Source: Caulochytrium protostelioides (Eukaryota; Chytridiomycota; Caulochytriomycetes; Caulochytriales; Caulochytriaceae). From it: a stretch of 64,000 nucleotides of DNA. The stretch is taken from NCBI GenBank assembly GCA_003615045.1, contig ML014177.1:1-64000 (forward strand), written 5' to 3'. The translations under genes were made by a program, and so were the position numbers. Shown here piece by piece: positions 743 to 26,100 of the stretch. The notes below the pieces were generated by a model. The model was given only the letters and a program-made list of their open reading frames with translations, did no database searches and was not told where the DNA came from. Within the stretch, counting starts at the first letter, position 1. Each line of letters opens with the position of its first letter.

Positions 743-1113
743 GGACCAGGCCCCTGGAGCCGCGATCCCGTCTGTGGGCGGGGGAGGACCAGCATGGTGC
801 ATTGCTCGAGCGGGGCTCGAGAGATAGACGTGGACGCGCCGGGAGATCTCAGTAGGATGGCGTCGTAGGGGTGGCCAGTATGCGGTCCACAGAGGAGATT
901 TGCTGGTGGTGTGATTCCACCAATTGCAAGTTTGTCTACCGCGATCTCCATGTCGTGTTGAACATCCGAACATCTGGTGTGCACCAAGGAGGGCATGGTG
1001 TTCGTGTTAGGTCATCTCTAGGGAGAGCCTCTATGTTCTTAAAACATACGTGACACTCGCGAGTCACGTATGTTCTTAAAGAGATATATAAAATATATAA
1101 AAGAGAGTACGGT
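743..1113. other. Intergenic, with AT-rich TATA-like run and palindrome
   Basis: Lies between the start of the carrier gene and the stop of eIF2-beta, both on the minus strand. It holds an AT-rich run at about 1083-1102 made of TATATA steps, which could be an upstream promoter element of the carrier or a 3'-end signal of eIF2-beta, and a strong inverted repeat at 1044-1073. No coding signal is seen. Confidence 0.6.
1033..1080. repeat. Inverted repeat nested in a direct repeat, downstream of eIF2-beta
   Basis: Arms ACATACGTGAC (1044-1054) and GTCACGTATGT (1063-1073) are perfect reverse complements separated by 8 nt. The sequence ATGTTCTTAAA occurs at 1033-1043 and again at 1070-1080. It sits 41-70 nt past the eIF2-beta stop codon, so it would fall in that gene's 3' UTR or just beyond it. 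Confidence 0.85.
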
Positions 1114-2076: not shown

Positions 2077-3368
2077 AGATGGCAGGCATACGTCATTCAT
2101 CACGCATAGTTCAAGAAAAACAAAACAAGTTCGTGAGTCGATAGTCGATTGGCTGGCGTCGAGTATGTCAGTAGGGTATCATATAAAACGAATGATGAGT
2201 TGCAGAGCTAGTGAAGGCACGACATCCAGACGACAATACCCGGATGGAGAGCAAGGGTAGGCATCGCGCGATGCTTTCATCACGAGGACAAGTCCTTTTG
2301 AACCCACATGCGCCGAATCGTCGGGCTCCGTCGCGGATAATATTGTGTCGTTCTGCGGCGCCGCATGATCCGACGACGATCCGGAACAACCCCATCGTCG
2401 GGACGACATCAACGGGTACGTGGCCATGTCGCAGCTTCGCAACACCCACGACCATCACCGGGGTGGTATGAGGCCAGTGACGGCGCGGGCCGGCCAGCCA
2501 TCACGATTTCACGAGCGCCAGTCTCGCGAACGGACCTATGGGGAGTATGGCGACCACTGCCACACCGGCTTGGGCACCGGCGGCGGGCGCGTGGCCATGA
2601 CTCCGAACAGGGCAGTATGAGCCGACAGTGAAGGGGAGGATGAGCTCGAAGGACGGATGCTCGACCCACGGGGCTGTGTCGCCCAAGAGAGGGTCCAGCA
2701 GAATCGATGGCGGCTCATGGCTGGCTGAGGCCAGCGAACGGAACAAAAGGGTGAACATACAGCCGGGTTCTGCTCCGTCTGGAGCTTCTGCTCGTCAGAC
2801 ATGGCAGCACAAACAAAAGGTGACGGTTGTGGGAAAAGCGGTGGGATGGGGCAGCTCGTAGTAGGGAAATAGCGTCGATGCAATGCCGGAAATGACAGTC
2901 AAAATGGGTTCAACGGGCAGTCAGGCGGGCTACAAAAGAGTCGATGGGGTGCAATGCACACAACGCGGGGCGTGGCAGCTTCAGAAACGTATCTCATCAC
3001 GTCGGCACGGAGCATCTGAAAATCATATTCTTAAGTATTCTTAAGCCTCCCATCCCTATCTTTCAGCACCCTTAGCTATTCCGTCAAATTCGTTTTGACG
3101 GCCCCATCGCTTCGCGTCGGTCGCTTCAAGGCCCACGGCACGGCATGGCCTTTCGCTAGTCTGGCTCGGGCCCGCCTCGCTTCGCTCCCGCTTCCAACTC
3201 GTCTCAAGCCGACGAGGCCGAACCAGCCACGGCGAGGCCAGCCAGGACGAGGCGGGGCGGACGCACGTCGACCTTGATATTGAGTATGTTGAGTCAAGAC
3301 CCACACCATGCCCACGGTGGGGGACCTCAGGCATCGCCCCTTCCCCCCCACCCCCACCAACCAAGGCA
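2077..3368. other. Intergenic, no firmly supported gene
   Basis: About 1.3 kb between eIF2-beta and Fanzor copy A. The first exon of eIF2-beta should lie at its left end. A weak spliced candidate on the minus strand (2501-2802) is listed separately. The stretch 3100-3290 is GC-rich with many short open frames on both strands, none of which resembles a protein I know. Confidence 0.5.
2501..2802 (-). CDS. Possible small two-exon gene, unrecognised
   Basis: Low-confidence candidate. The ATG at 2802 opens 14 codons (MSDEQKLQTEQNPA) ending at 2761 and followed directly by a good donor, GTATGT. If the intron ends at ATGAG (2714-2718), a 47-nt intron joins in phase 0 to an open frame starting PPSILLDPLLGDTAPW and ending at 2501, giving about 84 residues. 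The second exon contains a hydrophobic stretch (VAVVAILPIG). I do not recognise a family, the intron is short and the acceptor is poor, so this could be chance. Confidence 0.2.
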
Positions 3369-4035
3369 GCATTCGGTTCAGTGTCGAATGACTTTGCCGA
3401 CCTTGGACTGCAGTGGAGCTTGCCCGGGAATGCGGTACAGCGCTATCGGTCTGTCCGGTAAGGCCAGGCAGCGTCGGATGTTCAACGCGGCATTGAGATC
3501 GCGGTTCACCAACTTGCTCTTGGTAGACCCATGGCAAACCTCGAACCACGAGCCTCTGGCGCCGACGATGCCCTTTGTTTAGGACCACACTCGTCGGGGC
3601 ATACACCCGGATCGTGTGGACCGGGTCCACGGCCGTCGGCGCGGTCGGGTGGGCGCCCGCCCAGGATGCGAGAGAGATCGACACGACCGTCGTGTCCCGG
3701 ATTGTTGTCTGTCAGGATCCGATGACTCTCCGCATGCATCTGGGTCGTCCGGAACTCGTCGACCAGGGCGATATGGGAAGTGCTGGGCGCACGCTGGGTA
3801 CGCTGGAGCTGTTGGGCGGCGATCTCGCTCTGACCTCCCGGAGCAGACTTAGATGCGCCATAAGCGATCACCACTTCAGCGACCATGGGCTTCATCTCCA
3901 TGGCCGCCCCCTCGGCAACGCGGTTCAAGAACGGGGCAAACACGCGCTGCTTGCTACTGTACAGCCACAGGCGCTGGCGTGCCCCGCCAGGCTTCAGGGA
4001 CTCGGTCCACAGCGATTCGTATACCTGATAACAAC
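3369..4035 (-). pseudogene. Fanzor copy A (TnpB-like RNA-guided nuclease), decayed, C-terminal half only
   Basis: Relic of a Fanzor, the eukaryotic relative of the IS605 TnpB nuclease. On the minus strand, in different frames, one reads YESLWTESLKPGGARQRLWL, YSSKQRVFAPFLNRVAEGA, KPMVAEVVIAYGASKSAPGG, ALVDEFRTTQMHAE and, near 3475-3509, LVNRDLNAALNIRRC. These match in order the pre-RuvC-II helix region, the YGAS block, the V-DE-F/Y-R-T block before the zinc ribbon, and the RuvC-III motif with its catalytic Asp (RDLNAA). The frame ends in VIRH and TGA at 3378-3380, the same stop position as in copies B and C. The RuvC-I (DPG) half is missing beyond about 4035. At least two frameshifts separate the blocks, so the copy cannot encode a working nuclease as it stands. 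Close similarity to copy C at 3840-4010 versus 22620-22790 implies common descent. Confidence 0.85.
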
Positions 4036-4991
4036 GGCTGCATCGCATCAGGATAGCTAGCAAACAAGTCACTTGGATGGCTCTCGTCATAGCATTGGAT
4101 CACGACCTGGCGTGAGCAGCCACCGCTCTTCATGCAACACACATCTCGATCGCACGGCTTTATCAACTGCTGTCGTGTATCGTTCCCATCGCGGGAAGCA
4201 GATGATGCCTTGCCTAAGTACACGTTTGATCTTGTGTTTGGCCGCCGTATCCAGTCAATGGATATCACGTATCAATGCACTGTGTGGACGTTCTGCATGG
4301 TCGGCATATATTGGCAATTCCATGATATCAGGGTCGGTGTGATGTAGCGCCAACGCAAGGAGGCACGACTACTTGTCTCCCAAACAAAATTCCCTTCCTC
4401 GTCGCCTGGCACCGCCACCTGCAGAAATCTTAATAAACCCGGCTTCAGTCGGAGCGTAGCGGGAGTTGGCGCAGACCGACAATCGCCTTGATCGCCATCG
4501 CGTAACGTCTCCGGTGAAGTCGATCTCGACGAATATCGAGCACAAAGGCGATTGGCGGCGGTTGAATGGGAAAGAACGCCGATGCTCATTTTCAGGTGTC
4601 AGCGCTTCATGGAACGATGGGGCTTGCTCGATACATCCCCCTAGTCATACAGAGGAGGTGGTCGATTCAGTCGGTCCCGTCGCCGACTGAAATCCGGGGC
4701 CGCCCGATTTTATCGGAGTCGGTTTGTCGGAGATTCCCGATCATGCGCCACATGCCTTCCACAGCCCCGCTTGCTTGCGGCGTTCTGCCCCGGGGGATGG
4801 GGAAGCAGTTCCTTCAAGAGAGCACAGTGCATTATGCATGAACTCGGCCGCTGGGAGTTGCCCCGTACACACTTCTAGCAGATCGCTTTTCTTCATACTA
4901 CGAAAGATGAAAGAAACTTTCCACCTCTCATTATTCGTCCATCGACTTTCTGCTACCGGCCTCGATTGCCCGATCCATCTCCGCCATCGCT
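4036..4991. other. Intergenic / AlkB upstream region
   Basis: No coding signal is seen and no further Fanzor-like block was recognised, so the N-terminal half of copy A appears lost. The 100 nt before the AlkB ATG at 4992 are T/C-rich, as expected for a promoter or leader. Confidence 0.5.
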
Positions 4992-12942: not shown

Positions 12943-14094
12943 TGTGATAATCTTCGTGATCTGGTTGACTGGTTGCGTAGCGTGTTCGCTTCGCGCCGCG
13001 ATTCCGGGTCGTATTGTTTTCAATACACTGCTCGACGTGGTGGGGCAAACGACCGCAACAGGAGTAGGCGATGAGAATACAGAGCACACGCCGAAAACAC
13101 TCATGAATCGTGATAATGCCTCCCTGCTTGAGTACTTCAACGTTTGGCGTCCCAGTGCGGCGGCGGCCGTCGTGGCGGCGCATTGGCATTTGCAACGATA
13201 TAGGAGGAAGCTTCGGTGGCAAGCCACTTGGCCCGCTATCGTTTCCGGCAGCCCCGCCACGCAGGATGCACCGCGCATGGCCGTCTTCACGGATCACGGC
13301 AGTGGCGCATGATCCCATCGCCATCGCCGCCAACCCAGGCTCCTCAGCGCTACGACAATGATGATTACGCGTATTCGACTGATGCCCCAACCACCAGGGT
13401 GCGGACGTCCCCATGTAGTCGCGGCCTCATCAGCACCGTCGCGTCCAAGAGCTTGCCGAAGCCTCTGATTCAAGGGAGAGTTTTCGCAGATCGCCCGGAC
13501 ATAGTCCCCTTGCATCCACCTCAGGCTCCGCCTGACTCCTTCCCGATGGTAACCTGGGTGTCACAGGGGTCGTAGCTCGAAATCATTCGCCTGGACGAGG
13601 CCCAGCCGAACAGACTTCCGCATCTAAAGCATTTCGCCAGCAGCAGCGTTTGGCCTGAGAAAACCGTCTACATGGTGCTTCGACGAATAGAATATGCATG
13701 TGGAATATGTAGAATGCTCTTGAAGCGCTTTCAATACAGGGACTTTCCGGAGGGCCACAGGGTGGCGTCGAAGACGAACCATCATGCTGATGACTATGTC
13801 GATTTCTGCAGCAGCTAGCAGATATGCTTGAGTTTGTTAAAACATGCATCCGGCCTCAATCAGCAGCCTTATAACGGTTGCGTACCTTTCAGACTATGTG
13901 CAGCTGCGGGAGACTGACGGTCGATCGACGGGCCACTGACGGCGATGCGGTGGATGCCTTGGAGGCCGTGAACCCCGCTTAATTCGCGGGCGCCGCAGGG
14001 CCTTCCCGTCATCCCTGCTCACTCTGCCCATGAATGTGGAGGCTGCGACCGTCAGCCTTCGATCGGCGTGAGCCAAGTCAACCGTCCGTCGCTT
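12943..14094. other. Intergenic, no supported gene
   Basis: Upstream of PSMG4 and of Fanzor copy B. Several frames of 60-190 codons exist on both strands, but the longest minus-strand one is simply PSMG4 exon 1 read back through its leader, and none resembles a known family. The left end of the mobile-element relic may lie in here, but no terminal repeat was seen. Confidence 0.45.
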
Positions 14095-14988
14095 ACGAGA
14101 CGGCAGAGGTCACGGGTTCTCCCACGCTGTGGACAGTGGCGGCAGCAGCGTGTGCGTATACTTCCACCACAGCAAGAAGGTTGCCGGCGACGTGCCAGCC
14201 CTGGTGGCCGTGCCCAAGACCAGAATCCATTTGGCAGATAGCCTAAATGAACACTGCATCCTCAAAAGCGACCCGGGCAGCACCAGTGTCTTCTACATGG
14301 CGATAGAGCGGTCCGACGGTCATGTCGACAGCTTGAAGCTGACGAGAAAACGGTACGATGTGGAAGCCGGCATCAAAGCAGCCCAAACAGTAAGAGACCT
14401 GGCAGCCCGATCTCCACGAGCCACTGCAGCGGCTGTCGGAGTTCAGCATCGAAGGACACGGCGCTCGCAACGCACCAGGCCCCCCTAGAGGTGTGGATGA
14501 AGACCGACTACCGAGTACTTCAAGCCGCGCTGGGCGCGCTTGCCCCTGCGGCTATACGGAGATGCTTCCCGAGCTGCGTGGCTGACGTGGCGGCCGCGGA
14601 GAGCAAGTTTCTGCTCGTCGCTTACAGCGCATCCAAGTCTGCCCCCAGGGGCCAGGGTGAGATCGCCGCCCAACAGCTCGAGCGTACCAGGCGTGCGCCC
14701 AGCGCTTCTCATATCGCCCTGGTCGACGAGTTCCGGACGATCCAGGTGCATGCCAAGAAGAATGGGGGCCCGTAGAAATATGCAAAGCCGAAAGTGGCCC
14801 GTGGTCAGAGGTTTGCTGTGGCGCATTTCCAGCCACGGCATATTTGTGATCCGCGACTTAAACGCCGCCTTGAACAACCGACGCCGCCTGTCTCGCCAGT
14901 CAGGCCGACTAGGGTACGCGTTCCCGACTGACGTGCCTGGCACGACAGGCCGGTGGTCAGGCATGCCTATCCGGTGCTGAACCGAATG
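14095..14988 (+). pseudogene. Fanzor copy B, decayed, retains RuvC-I and RuvC-III
   Basis: The most complete of three Fanzor relics here. In order: SSVCVYFHHSKKV, VPKTRIHLADSLNEH, then the RuvC-I block ILKSDPGSTSVFYMAIERSDG with its catalytic Asp at about 14270, and LKLTRKRYDVEAGIKAAQ. After a frameshift near 14420 the helical block found in copies A and C (LWTESLKPGG...) is deleted or unrecognisable. Then come LLVAYSASKSAPRGQGEI (14605-14670), ALVDEFRTIQVHAKKNGG (about 14720-14770) followed by a stop, and finally FVIRDLNAALNNRRR (RuvC-III, Asp at about 14855-14857) running to MPIRC and TGA at 14978-14980. Family logic: RuvC-I Asp, central Glu region and RuvC-III Asp form the nuclease site. 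Frameshifts and the internal stop make it a pseudogene. Copy B is inverted relative to A and C. Confidence 0.87.
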
Positions 14989-14996
14989 CGGACTGC

Positions 14997-15029
14997 CTCT
15001 CGAAGGGACCCCCGGGGTCCCGAGGAGAG
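14997..15029 (+). repeat. Hairpin 16 nt downstream of the Fanzor B stop codon
   Basis: Perfect inverted repeat GGGACCCC-C-GGGGTCCC at 15005-15021, flanked after a 3-nt mismatch by CTCTC (14997-15001) and GAGAG (15025-15029), so a stem of 8 plus 5 pairs can form. In TnpB and Fanzor systems the guide RNA begins near the 3' end of the nuclease ORF, so this is a candidate remnant of that RNA; the link is inference. Confidence 0.6.
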
Positions 15030-15510
15030 AAGTTCGTCTTGCAGGGTCTCCCCGGACAGCATATATCCTTCAAAAGGCTTTGATGGCTTTGGTGATGCGG
15101 GCGCCACCCGGGGTGAAGCGCTCTCTCGAGTGCCCCTCGGGACGACAAAGGTAAAAATGATGATTCAAAGCCTATCATGCAGCGCCGGCTTGCTCGGCAA
15201 ATGTATTCCTCGCTGCTTCATACACGCGACCGAGTTCCGGATATAAAAAGCCCGCTATAGCGTGCTGTATCATTGTGTATCGTTGAGTGGATGCAAATCA
15301 TGAATTCACTGTGACATCTCTGTACGAGAGAGCCTTGTCGTGGGTCGTCACATTCAGCTCGTGAACCACCTCAGTTCTCTTGACTCCTGACGAACCATTC
15401 CGCATTCTGTCTTTGCAAACTACCAGATCTCTGCTGTGATACGCGGTTACGGACCCTAGTTTGTCCTTTGACTTTTTCCCCTTGAGCCTGCAGATAACGT
15501 GCCGTGAAAC
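15030..15510. other. Intergenic, upstream of the acyl-CoA ligase
   Basis: About 480 nt; T/C-rich in its last third, as expected of a fungal promoter/leader. No coding signal is seen. Confidence 0.5.
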
Positions 15511-21977: not shown

Positions 21978-22066
21978 CTCAGATACAGGCATCATCACCT
22001 AACACAATTACCATCCTCTTCTGGGTGTCCCACAGGGCTCCGCCGCGGCGGCATTCCGAATTGGGT

Positions 22067-23140
22067 TCATCGTCGGATGGGCATGCCAACCTTTGCAGAG
22101 GAGCTTGCCCGGGGATGCGGCGCAGCGCCTCCGGTTTGAGGAGTAAGGCCAGGCAGCGTCAGATGTTCAACGCGGCATTGAGATCGCGGGTCACAAACTT
22201 GCTGTTGGTGGCTTCACACCACAGCAAACCTCAGACCACGATCCCCTAGCGCCGGTGTTGCCCGAACTTCAGGACCACATTCGTATACACCGGGGTCCTG
22301 CGGAACGGGTTGACTGCCCTCAGCGCGGTCGGGGGGCGCCCGCCTGGGACGCTCGAGACATTGACACGACCGTCGTGTCCCGGATTGTTGCCTTTGTCAG
22401 GACTTGATTCGCCTCGGCATGCACCTGGGTCGTCAGGAATTCGTCGACCAGAACAATGCCGAATCACTGGGCCACTTTTGCATATTTTTACAGGCCCCAT
22501 TCGTTTCGGCATGCATCCAGGTCGTCCGGAACTCGTCGACCAGGGCGATATGGGAAGCGCTGGGCGCACGCCTGGTACGCCCGAGCTGTTGGAACAGAGA
22601 TCTCGCCCTTGCCCCAAGGGGCAAGCTTAGATGCGCCATAAGCGATCACCACTTCAGCGACCATGGGCTTCGTCTCCGTGGCCGCCCCCTCGGCAGCGCG
22701 GTTCAAGAACGGGGCAAACACGCGTTGCTTGCTACTGTACAGCCACAGGCGCTGGCGTGCCCCGCCAGGCTTCAGGGACTCGGTCCACAGTGGCTCGTAC
22801 GTGGCAAGCCACATCTCCCGGAACTGGTGCTACGCGGCGAGCGCTATGTCTTCGATGCTGAACTCCGACAGCCGCTGCAGCGGCTCGTGGAGATCGGGCT
22901 GCCAAGTCTCTTACTGTTTGGGCTGCTTTGATGCCGGCTTCCACATCGTACCGTTTTCTCGTCAGCTTCAAGCTGTCGACATGACCGTCGGACCGCTCTA
23001 TCGCCATGTAGAAGAAAATGGTGCTGCCCGGGTCGCTTTTGAGGATGCAGTGTTTTTAGGCTATCTGCCAAATTTATTTAGGCTATCTGCCAAATGGATC
23101 CTGGTCTTGGGCAAGGTGACCAGGGCAGGCACGTCGTCGG
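22067..23140 (-). pseudogene. Fanzor copy C, decayed and apparently recombinant
   Basis: Third Fanzor relic, same orientation as copy A. Reading the minus strand: DDVPALVTLPKTRIHLADSL, an 18-nt tandem duplication (23054-23092) that breaks the frame just before the DPG motif, then MAIERSDGHVDSLKLTRKRY, DVEAGIKAAQ, a frameshift, LQRLSEFSIEDIALAA, a stop, MWLATYEPLWTESLKPGG, SSKQRVFAPFLNRAAEGA, MVAEVVIAYGASKLAP and ALVDEFRTTWMHAE. After about 95 nt a second DEF block (VDEFLTTQVHAE) follows, then NPGHDGRV as in copy A, GLLWCEATNSKFVTRDLNAALNI and a stop. The conserved terminal TGA is at 22067-22069. Blocks near 22440-22500 match copy B, whereas 22270-22420 match copy A, so C combines both types. 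Multiple stops and frameshifts exclude function as written. Confidence 0.85.
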
Positions 23141-26100
23141 CCGTTTCCACTTACATTAGCGGGATGATCTGGGTCAGCAAGTCGGTCGGGGCATCATCGC
23201 ATGCGTGACCTACTTCGCGAGAAGATTCTTACGTGGACAGGGGGCTACCATTGTAAAGGCCGTCTATGTGAAAACGGATGCATAATGCTAAGCGTCGGTG
23301 CGCACGCCGGATAAACCTCCAGGTGGGCGATGACCGCCTGATCTATCATCTAATAGCTCGATACTGGATCAGGATGGATCGGATGGATCGGAATGGACCG
23401 GAACAAGCAGATGTCCATCGTGTATGTGTGCCGGGTCTCACAAATAATGCTCCTTGGCTCGAGCCTGCCAGGCAGGCCTCCTGACCGGATCACATACCCA
23501 AACAAACAACGGGCGATGATGCGCTTTGATGCCGTTTTGCACTATCAGGGCGGCCGGGCTGTGACGTCGTCGCCCCGGCTGATTGGCTTCGCCCTCTGCC
23601 GCGCCTTCCGTGAAGGAGCATCACGATCACTCCACACTGACCCGTCGGGAAAAACGCTGTGGCGATTCAGCCAAGACATACCATCGGCCAAGCTAGGGAT
23701 CATAAGCCCATCTCTCACGGCCGCCAACGAAGCGCGCATGAAACGGTCTCGATCGACATGGATATATGGCAAGCATATCTGGCGCGCGTATCTGGCGTGC
23801 GTATCCAGCATGGCTGTCTGCCATTGTCGGTCTCAACCTTAGGCATAGCCCGCAGCCAGGCCCAACCCCGGTCATCGGCGATCCTTGATGACCACCTAGC
23901 CCATGCTGAAGTTGGGGACGCCGCGTTAGATGGCGACGGAGACCCTGAATGGGGGACGAGCGGGCGCAAGTCAAAAGAGGCGGAGACAGCCCGCAAAGCC
24001 GACGGGTCGCGCCGCGCGACGACTGTCACGTCATCCAGTCCGTTGCCAGGGGCTGTCCCGATGCGGGCTGCGGAGCGGCGCATCGGGGACACGCATGCGC
24101 CGACTTCATCGTGGGGGCCAAAAACCCCGTCCCGTGATGCTGCGCGCTGCTCATCGTGCCTACTGACGATGTTGCATGTGCCGATCGCCTGCAAAAAGTT
24201 ATGCAGCTGGGGGCTTCTCGAGACATCCCCCAGCGCTCCACGGAAATGAAACATAAGCCGACACCGCGGTCGGCGAACAAAGCAATGCATTCGCCCGGCG
24301 TTTCGGTATCGGCATTAGCCGGAGAATACGGCATGTGCGCCAGCAGCGCGCGACAGCCACGCCAACGTTTCCACTGACGCCTTCTCCGCCACAAACAAGC
24401 AGAAAGCCGAGGCGGCTCGGGCTACACCATCAAGCGGTGAAAACAAAATAATGTCTTAACAGAGAAGGCGGATGGCACTGGACCTTTGCGCTTGAAATCC
24501 CGGTCGTTCTAGGGCGAACTGACCATCAGCAGGTGCGCTGACTAACCCGATTGAGTCTCTCGAATCCATTGTGGTACTCCAATATCACGTGTGAGAAGCG
24601 CCGCAACCCTGTGATCCGTAAGCTTCGATAACAAACCGCAGAAGTCAACTTTCCATGATGCAAACACCCTGCATTGTCGATTTTCTTGCCCCCCTCATCC
24701 CCCGAGGTCCCCACCGCCTCCGGCGTGTTGTGGCAAGTGCAATATGCGTCTCGAAAGGGCCAATATTTTTTTACGAACACTCACCCTTGAGACGACCGAG
24801 CGCGAACGCCAATATTGCTGGAAAGAGAAAAATGACCATTCTTGCGAGCGCCGAGGTGGCGGGCGGACCCGACCGTTGGGCCTTGCCTGAGACATCGCCT
24901 TGGAAGGTAGGGGACAACGCCGAATGAGCAGCGGACGGTTCCGCCAGCCTAACCCATCGGGAGCCCACGGCATGACCCGATGCCTCCCTGTTTCTTTACG
25001 GACGGGCCGATGAAGGCGGGATGACTCCAGCAGCCAAGCTCCTATCGCTCACAATGTCTAGCGTTGTCTTTTGCCTACCGGAAGGGGCCGATGGGCCCAA
25101 CTGTCTGCGCCGCGCTCGTCAGTGTGGGCTACGGAAACAACACGGGGGGCCCTTGTTCGTCCATCCCATCGTCGGCAGCAAGTGGCCCTTGCAACCCTGA
25201 CGGCATCCAGCGCCTGCGGTCCCCTGACATCGCCGGCCGGCCCGCCGCGGCATGGTGGCACGGGTCTTCAGGGCAGTGCGCCAATTCCTCAGACCCCTCG
25301 CGCACCATCGTGCTGCCGACTGGCCCTGACGGCTCGCTATGCATGCTTGAGGTCGCCGGACCATCATCTGGGCACATCCGTGATCTAGAGCAGCCTGGCG
25401 CAGGGAGCTCGTCTCGCCCCAGCATGAAGCGTGCCCTCACACGGCCCTGCCCTTTCACATTGTTGTCATCATGTTCCCTTTTTTTGCTCTTTTCCGCCGC
25501 GCGGTTCTACGGGCCCGCCGGCCCTCGGCAAGGCCGCGATATCAAGCCTTCCCTGATATTGCGGTCGCCCACTCCCTCATCCTCCCTCCTCGGGGCCGAA
25601 CACTGGCCGAGCACAGCATGACGGTGGCGGGAGGGGCGGGCAGCGGTCTGGAGATGCGAAGAGCCATGTGCAGGAGGCCGCGTGAGTGTGTGTGCCCCTG
25701 CTCCGACGGGCCGGTCATAATAAAATCGCTCGTTTTTTTTTTCTTGAAGCCACGAAGCGGTGGTGGGCGATGAAAACGCCGTGGCGGGGAGGAGAGGGGT
25801 CGGGGGGAGGAGGAGAGGGGACGCGACGCAGTACACGCGCGTGCCAGCGGTCATTGAGCGGCCACTCAGCCGTTTGCGGGCCTTATACCGCTTTGTCTGC
25901 ATCAATTGTGATTCTGCTTGGAGGCACGCTCGTGCTGTCAGCAACTCTGACATGAGCTGTGCCGGGCTGCTCCACATTCAGCCGATGTGGCGGGGCCCGG
26001 CTCCCCTCCGGATGTGGCCTCGCTGTGGGGAGCGCTGCCACTGCCCAAGGCCATGACGATGGCGGTGGCCATCCTTCGCGGCGATGATGATCCGATGGCA

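Follow-up and report, generated by a model that had tools for sequence, protein, structure and literature searches.

A broken Fanzor1-type gene and its conserved right end in the chytrid Caulochytrium protostelioides

Fanzors are RNA-guided nucleases of eukaryotes. Here we ask what left the broken gene that lies around positions 14,095 to 14,988 of the window, by which we mean the first 64,000 nucleotides (forward strand) of contig ML014177.1 in the C. protostelioides assembly GCA_003615045.1. A preliminary description made from the letters alone had read six short protein blocks there as a Fanzor relic, relic B. Taken as a whole, the locus is best explained as a Fanzor1-type mobile element of which a decayed 3' half remains, a reading to which we give a probability of about 0.88.

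The tBLASTn check proposed in that description was run with a protein of the family, and P0018, an unbroken relative of 618 amino acids, matched positions 14072-14893 of the 64-kb window with residues 306-591 (E=2.2e-33). On the reversed window the best value among 121 family proteins was E=0.031; the protein match of relic B is beyond chance. All six blocks were recovered at the positions first given for them, as listed here.

14072..14893, + strand: relic B, broken Fanzor1-type coding sequence (tblastn E=2.2e-33; blocks in frames 2, 1, 2)
14144-14164, + strand: SSVCVYF (frame 2)
14270-14296, + strand: DPGSTSVFY, the RuvC-I block with the first catalytic Asp; DPG is a Fanzor mark (frame 2)
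14339-14371, + strand: LTRKRYDVEAG (frame 2)
14620-14637, + strand: AYSASK (frame 1)
14722-14739, + strand: VDEFRT, the RuvC-II block with the alternative catalytic Glu (frame 1); no zinc-finger Cys pair follows it
14852-14875, + strand: RDLNAALN, the RuvC-III block with the last catalytic Asp (frame 2)

The coding sequence is a fossil, as had been proposed: stops and two or more frame changes interrupt the reading frame, and a working protein can hardly be made from it. Short pieces of another contig, C207, are 94-95% identical to relic B.

Six relatives were found by searching proteins with an open stretch of a sister copy from the same genome, and the profile built from these six gave 465 protein matches, whose full-length members have ∼590-640 residues (judged on the best 120 of the 465); the 121 family proteins were fetched for motif tests and window searches. 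A profile of unbroken relatives reached the solved Fanzor1 chains, and the predicted structure of an unbroken relative shows the Fanzor1 fold. In the profile alignment the RuvC-I Asp of the family aligns with the DPG/DPN Asp of the Fanzor1 proteins of Parasitella parasitica (PpFz1) and Spizellomyces punctatus (SpuFz1), and DEFRT has its Glu in the same column as the Glu of SpuFz1 DEYKTS and of PpFz1 DEFRTS. DPG stands at RuvC-I in 89 of the 90 relatives that carry both later motifs, the other 31 of the 121 having been set aside for a missing motif. The Fanzor fingerprint of Yoon et al. (2023) consists of DPG plus the alternative Glu at RuvC-II (excerpts of PMC10711439), and relic B has both, with DPG at 14270 and the Glu in VDEFRT. 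PF26935 is assigned to many relatives in the protein database. Sequence, profile match to the solved chains and predicted fold of the unbroken relative agree on the Fanzor identity that had been suggested.

Several results weigh against the reading as a Fanzor1-type element. The Guillardia Fanzor1 matched in the profile search at 0.052 only, and the first six-row profile also returned an unrelated protease chain at 0.0041. None of the 22 proteins or pieces scanned with the Pfam TNB model reached its cut-off, and neither did any of the five relatives scanned with the NCBIfam TnpB model; the C4 zinc finger that belongs to the 2013 Fanzor motif is missing, and terminal inverted repeats and target duplications are not established for the element. 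Single relic pieces gave nothing above cut-off in Pfam or PDB searches because they are too short or too worn, and a genome search with PF07282 returned four weak matches, none above cut-off. Descent from a Fanzor2/IS607-type or a bacterial TnpB gene would account for the order of RuvC blocks, which is common to Fanzor1, Fanzor2 and TnpB, and the NCBIfam TnpB model does score protein P0116 at 9.2e-7, with 28 bits and a cut-off of 100; set beside the solved Fanzor1 chains reached by the profile and the Fanzor1 fold, we regard such an origin as highly improbable, and treat the relic as Fanzor1-type in what follows.

The finger is missing from the testable relatives as well. Four Cys between the DEFR[TS][TS]-type and RDxNA-type motifs were found in none of 90 testable relatives, that is, those of the 121 proteins with both motifs; the other 31 failed the motif patterns and were not judged. 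Twenty-five of the 90 have no Cys in this interval, 48 have one, 13 two and 4 three, and a Cys pair is retained in four. According to Bao and Jurka (2013) the C4 finger belongs to the strictly conserved motif, between [TS][TS]xx and RD (excerpts of PMC3627910), and in the account of Yoon et al. (2023) it is present in many TnpBs and Fanzors (PMC10711439, in part). The family is Fanzor by the 2023 fingerprint and by fold, and is not Fanzor by the 2013 motif. No published description of a finger-less Fanzor branch was found, subscription papers and published alignments lying outside the scope of this search. The length from DEFR to RDL is 42 residues in relic B, has a median of 47 (42-191) in 89 unbroken relatives, and is 85-141 in 17 of 20 measured genome records, which overlap and include L018, L024 and L066. 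By eye, this long stretch between RuvC-II and RuvC-III of the genome copies is rich in Pro, Ala and Arg, and it occupies the place of the lost finger; the one copy checked for a tandem-repeat origin showed no sign of it.

That copies might exist elsewhere in the genome held true, since the P0018 search listed 1241 candidates, and the 71 that were scored yielded 102 matches; the hope for an intact one found no support among the copies examined, most of the candidates being unscored. Among 62 fetched, partly overlapping records none is intact, and no single open frame spans more than 285 of 618 residues. Forty copies were compared from RuvC-I to RuvC-II: each has its nearest neighbour at 76.5-94.1% identity (median 84.4%), and pairs average 79.5%. 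These values suggest a family that was long active, without a very recent burst among the copies seen, and the fossils show a genome where it first multiplied and later died out, so far as the examined copies tell.

The sequence that the copies share extends beyond the gene. Copies remain alike for ∼100 nucleotides (nt) past the stop codon (less in some) and then diverge, and the similarity of relic B to the copy on contig C25 (L055) continues to ∼15075, past the end at 14988 drawn in the preliminary description. The following feature is therefore added at the right end.

14982..15076, + strand: non-coding 3' tail, probable omegaRNA scaffold remnant (hairpin in the first ∼55 nt; likeness to the C25 copy stops at ∼15075)

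One subfamily ends in GACCGCGTTAAACTCAATA, which has 37 matches with at most one mismatch, compared with 0 for the control. From the 62 tails collected, 10 that the anchor failed to place were left out; trimming to 78 nt and dropping 9 rearranged-looking tails, including that of the relic at 3 kb of the window, left 43. The consensus fold of these 43 has -23.9 kcal/mol, whereas 100 column shuffles gave -14.2 (standard deviation 3.0) and none as low. Hairpin pairs are formed in 662 of 804 cells (82%), compared with 33-55% when the partners are slid by 1-3 columns, and cells with double changes number 28, compared with 15-22 in the slid controls. The outer stem can be extended by three pairs, which are A-U in 28/43 and 32/43 tails and U-A or U-G in 29/43. 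Several points count against a folded RNA here: the 52 untrimmed tails gave no consensus structure (0.0); the 43 tails were selected, and selection favours structure; pairs with double changes number 7 (7-11 when slid) and extra pair types 29 (22-29); and the tail of relic B only modestly beats its shuffles (z -1.84 for 14982-15060, -1.73 for 14982-15076). Single tails elsewhere vary, with z -3.74 for L095 and -1.39 for L096, and Rfam gave no match within the window. Hence the pairing is well kept, and the covariation in the tails is weak and only suggestive, because the 82% pairing exceeds the slid versions and the pair-level counts do not. By comparison with Spizellomyces, the conserved right ends carried by many copies are probably remains of the guide RNA, and so many fossil ends form a natural alignment of this probable guide RNA.

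At the left side the picture is more mixed. A handful of copies have in common a 5' leader that contains a TATA-like box and a start codon, and upstream of relic B lies a further segment.

13671..14068, + strand: upstream segment without significant Fanzor protein match; recurs beside the C124, C109 and C207 copies of the relic B subfamily

This segment may be a repeat of its own, because it is also found at genome places without a known Fanzor match. DNA searches gave 16 candidates with the leader and 283 (40 scored) with the tail. In 98 fetched, overlapping records with a match, the N-terminus was reached in 25, cut at the 5' side in 28 and without call in 45, and the C-terminus was reached in 86, cut in 7 and without call in 5. 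This 5'-truncation bias is no more than a lead, because the choice of loci favours 3' halves. At three loci (L051:791-876, L080:653-713 and L100:508-572) Fanzor 5' parts are preceded by Fanzor right ends in inverted orientation, and these inverted ends may be terminal repeats or joined fragments; terminal inverted repeats were suspected from them and are not claimed, because two of the three inverted pieces carry more than the end.

Two other accounts of the element bear on these ends. The relic could be a Fanzor whose 3' tail was only a transposon end recognised by a transposase, with no guide RNA made. The tail does stop where the copies diverge, a similar end is inverted on the 5' side of the three loci, as a terminal repeat might be, and the covariation of the hairpin is weak. 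However, its pairing is kept in 43 copies far above the slid versions, the inverted pieces at L051 and L080 continue into the hairpin and the coding end, so that a joined second fragment is likelier than a terminal repeat, and a DNA end and an omegaRNA can have the same sequence, as in Spizellomyces (excerpts of PMC10432273). We therefore think a tail without guide RNA unlikely. The copies could also have spread by a rolling-circle, Helitron-like movement, as proposed for CRe-1 to CRe-3 of Chlamydomonas, which have the same truncation bias and captured 5' pieces (PMC3627910, in part); the excess of tail over leader candidates, the 28 records cut at 5' compared with 7 at 3', and the foreign segment that recurs with the relic B subfamily would fit such a movement. 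Yet no match to Helitron_like_N (PF14214) was found in the genome, a weak negative since control genomes gave none either; moreover, evolution may be faster in the leader than in the tail, a matching 3' half was the reason for fetching many loci, 45 of the 98 records are without 5' call, and a diverged N-terminal half may escape tblastn. Helitron-like spread thus appears doubtful, if slightly less so than a tail without guide RNA. A search for Tc1/mariner transposases gave no DDE_3 match in the genome, which is also a weak negative.

For the Fanzor1-type element with a guide RNA, the following life can be proposed. The living element would have encoded a nuclease of ∼620 residues that had Asp-Glu-Asp as its RuvC active site and lacked the zinc finger, and the element's right end of ∼100 nt would have begun no more than a few bases after the stop codon. 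Once transcribed, this right end would have served as the scaffold of the omegaRNA, and host DNA immediately beyond the 3' end as the guide, as in the Spizellomyces Fanzor, where the omegaRNA comprises a 75-nt scaffold from the right end, which lies downstream of the gene, and after it 14-15 nt of flank (excerpts of PMC10432273), a layout that resembles the structured tail after the gene seen here. Judging from characterised relatives, the nuclease most likely bound an RNA made from the element's right end and cut DNA that matched the guide, and guided cutting may have helped the element to persist; RNA binding, guidance and cutting are argued by analogy with those relatives, and a target motif and a role in retention are inferred. 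More broadly, and tentatively, at a little short of even odds, a large Fanzor1 branch would have remained mobile and RNA-guided after losing the zinc finger from its target-binding domain; this genome would be its graveyard, in which many right ends, that of relic B included, still preserve the guide-RNA scaffold, and its working form could be studied from unbroken metagenomic relatives. Such a branch would reveal what portion of the target-binding domain the enzyme can do without, and together with the many preserved right ends it is worth following.

Fanzor elements were already known in fungi (Table 1 of PMC3627910, as excerpted). Identity to SpuFz1 (SPu-1 element; PDB 8gkh) is 16-17%, and SpuFz1 has the finger Cys pairs, whereas the family here is without the finger; SPu-1 is described with 30-33-bp inverted repeats and putative TA duplications, whereas no inverted repeats are established here. 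PpFz1 (PDB 9cf0; 14% identity) has Cys at the finger and, unlike the present family, carries a cyclophilin-binding insertion domain in its RuvC (PMC11423790, in part). The Chlamydomonas Fanzor1 families CRe-1, CRe-2 and CRe-3 have many 5'-truncated copies with complete 3' ends, as here; in the same excerpts of PMC3627910 they contain introns and have their ends in common with Helitron2 elements, whereas here no Helitron link was found, again a weak negative. The nearest viral predicted folds are those of A0A6G6XPP9 and A0A2P0VP66 of Tetraselmis virus 1, with template modelling (TM) values of 0.82 and 0.77 and 30% and 23% identity to P0018, respectively, and among viral contigs of IMG/VR a pattern and tblastn search gave 20 pattern matches and no relative.

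Two more Fanzor relics lie in the window.

21996..23225, - strand: second Fanzor relic with the shared part of its 3' tail (tblastn coding match 22389-23225)
3277..4069, - strand: third Fanzor relic with a 3' tail ending in CTCAATAT (tblastn coding match 3384-4069)

The second relic has 78% DNA identity to relic B over 604 bases. Pieces at 974-1052 (+) and 24763-24811 (-) also match Fanzor right ends, with no adjoining coding part among the best 60 tblastn rows. Finally, the stretch 12968-13647 is 97% identical to C207:1277-1957 and represents a young duplication, near the Fanzor relic and separate from it.
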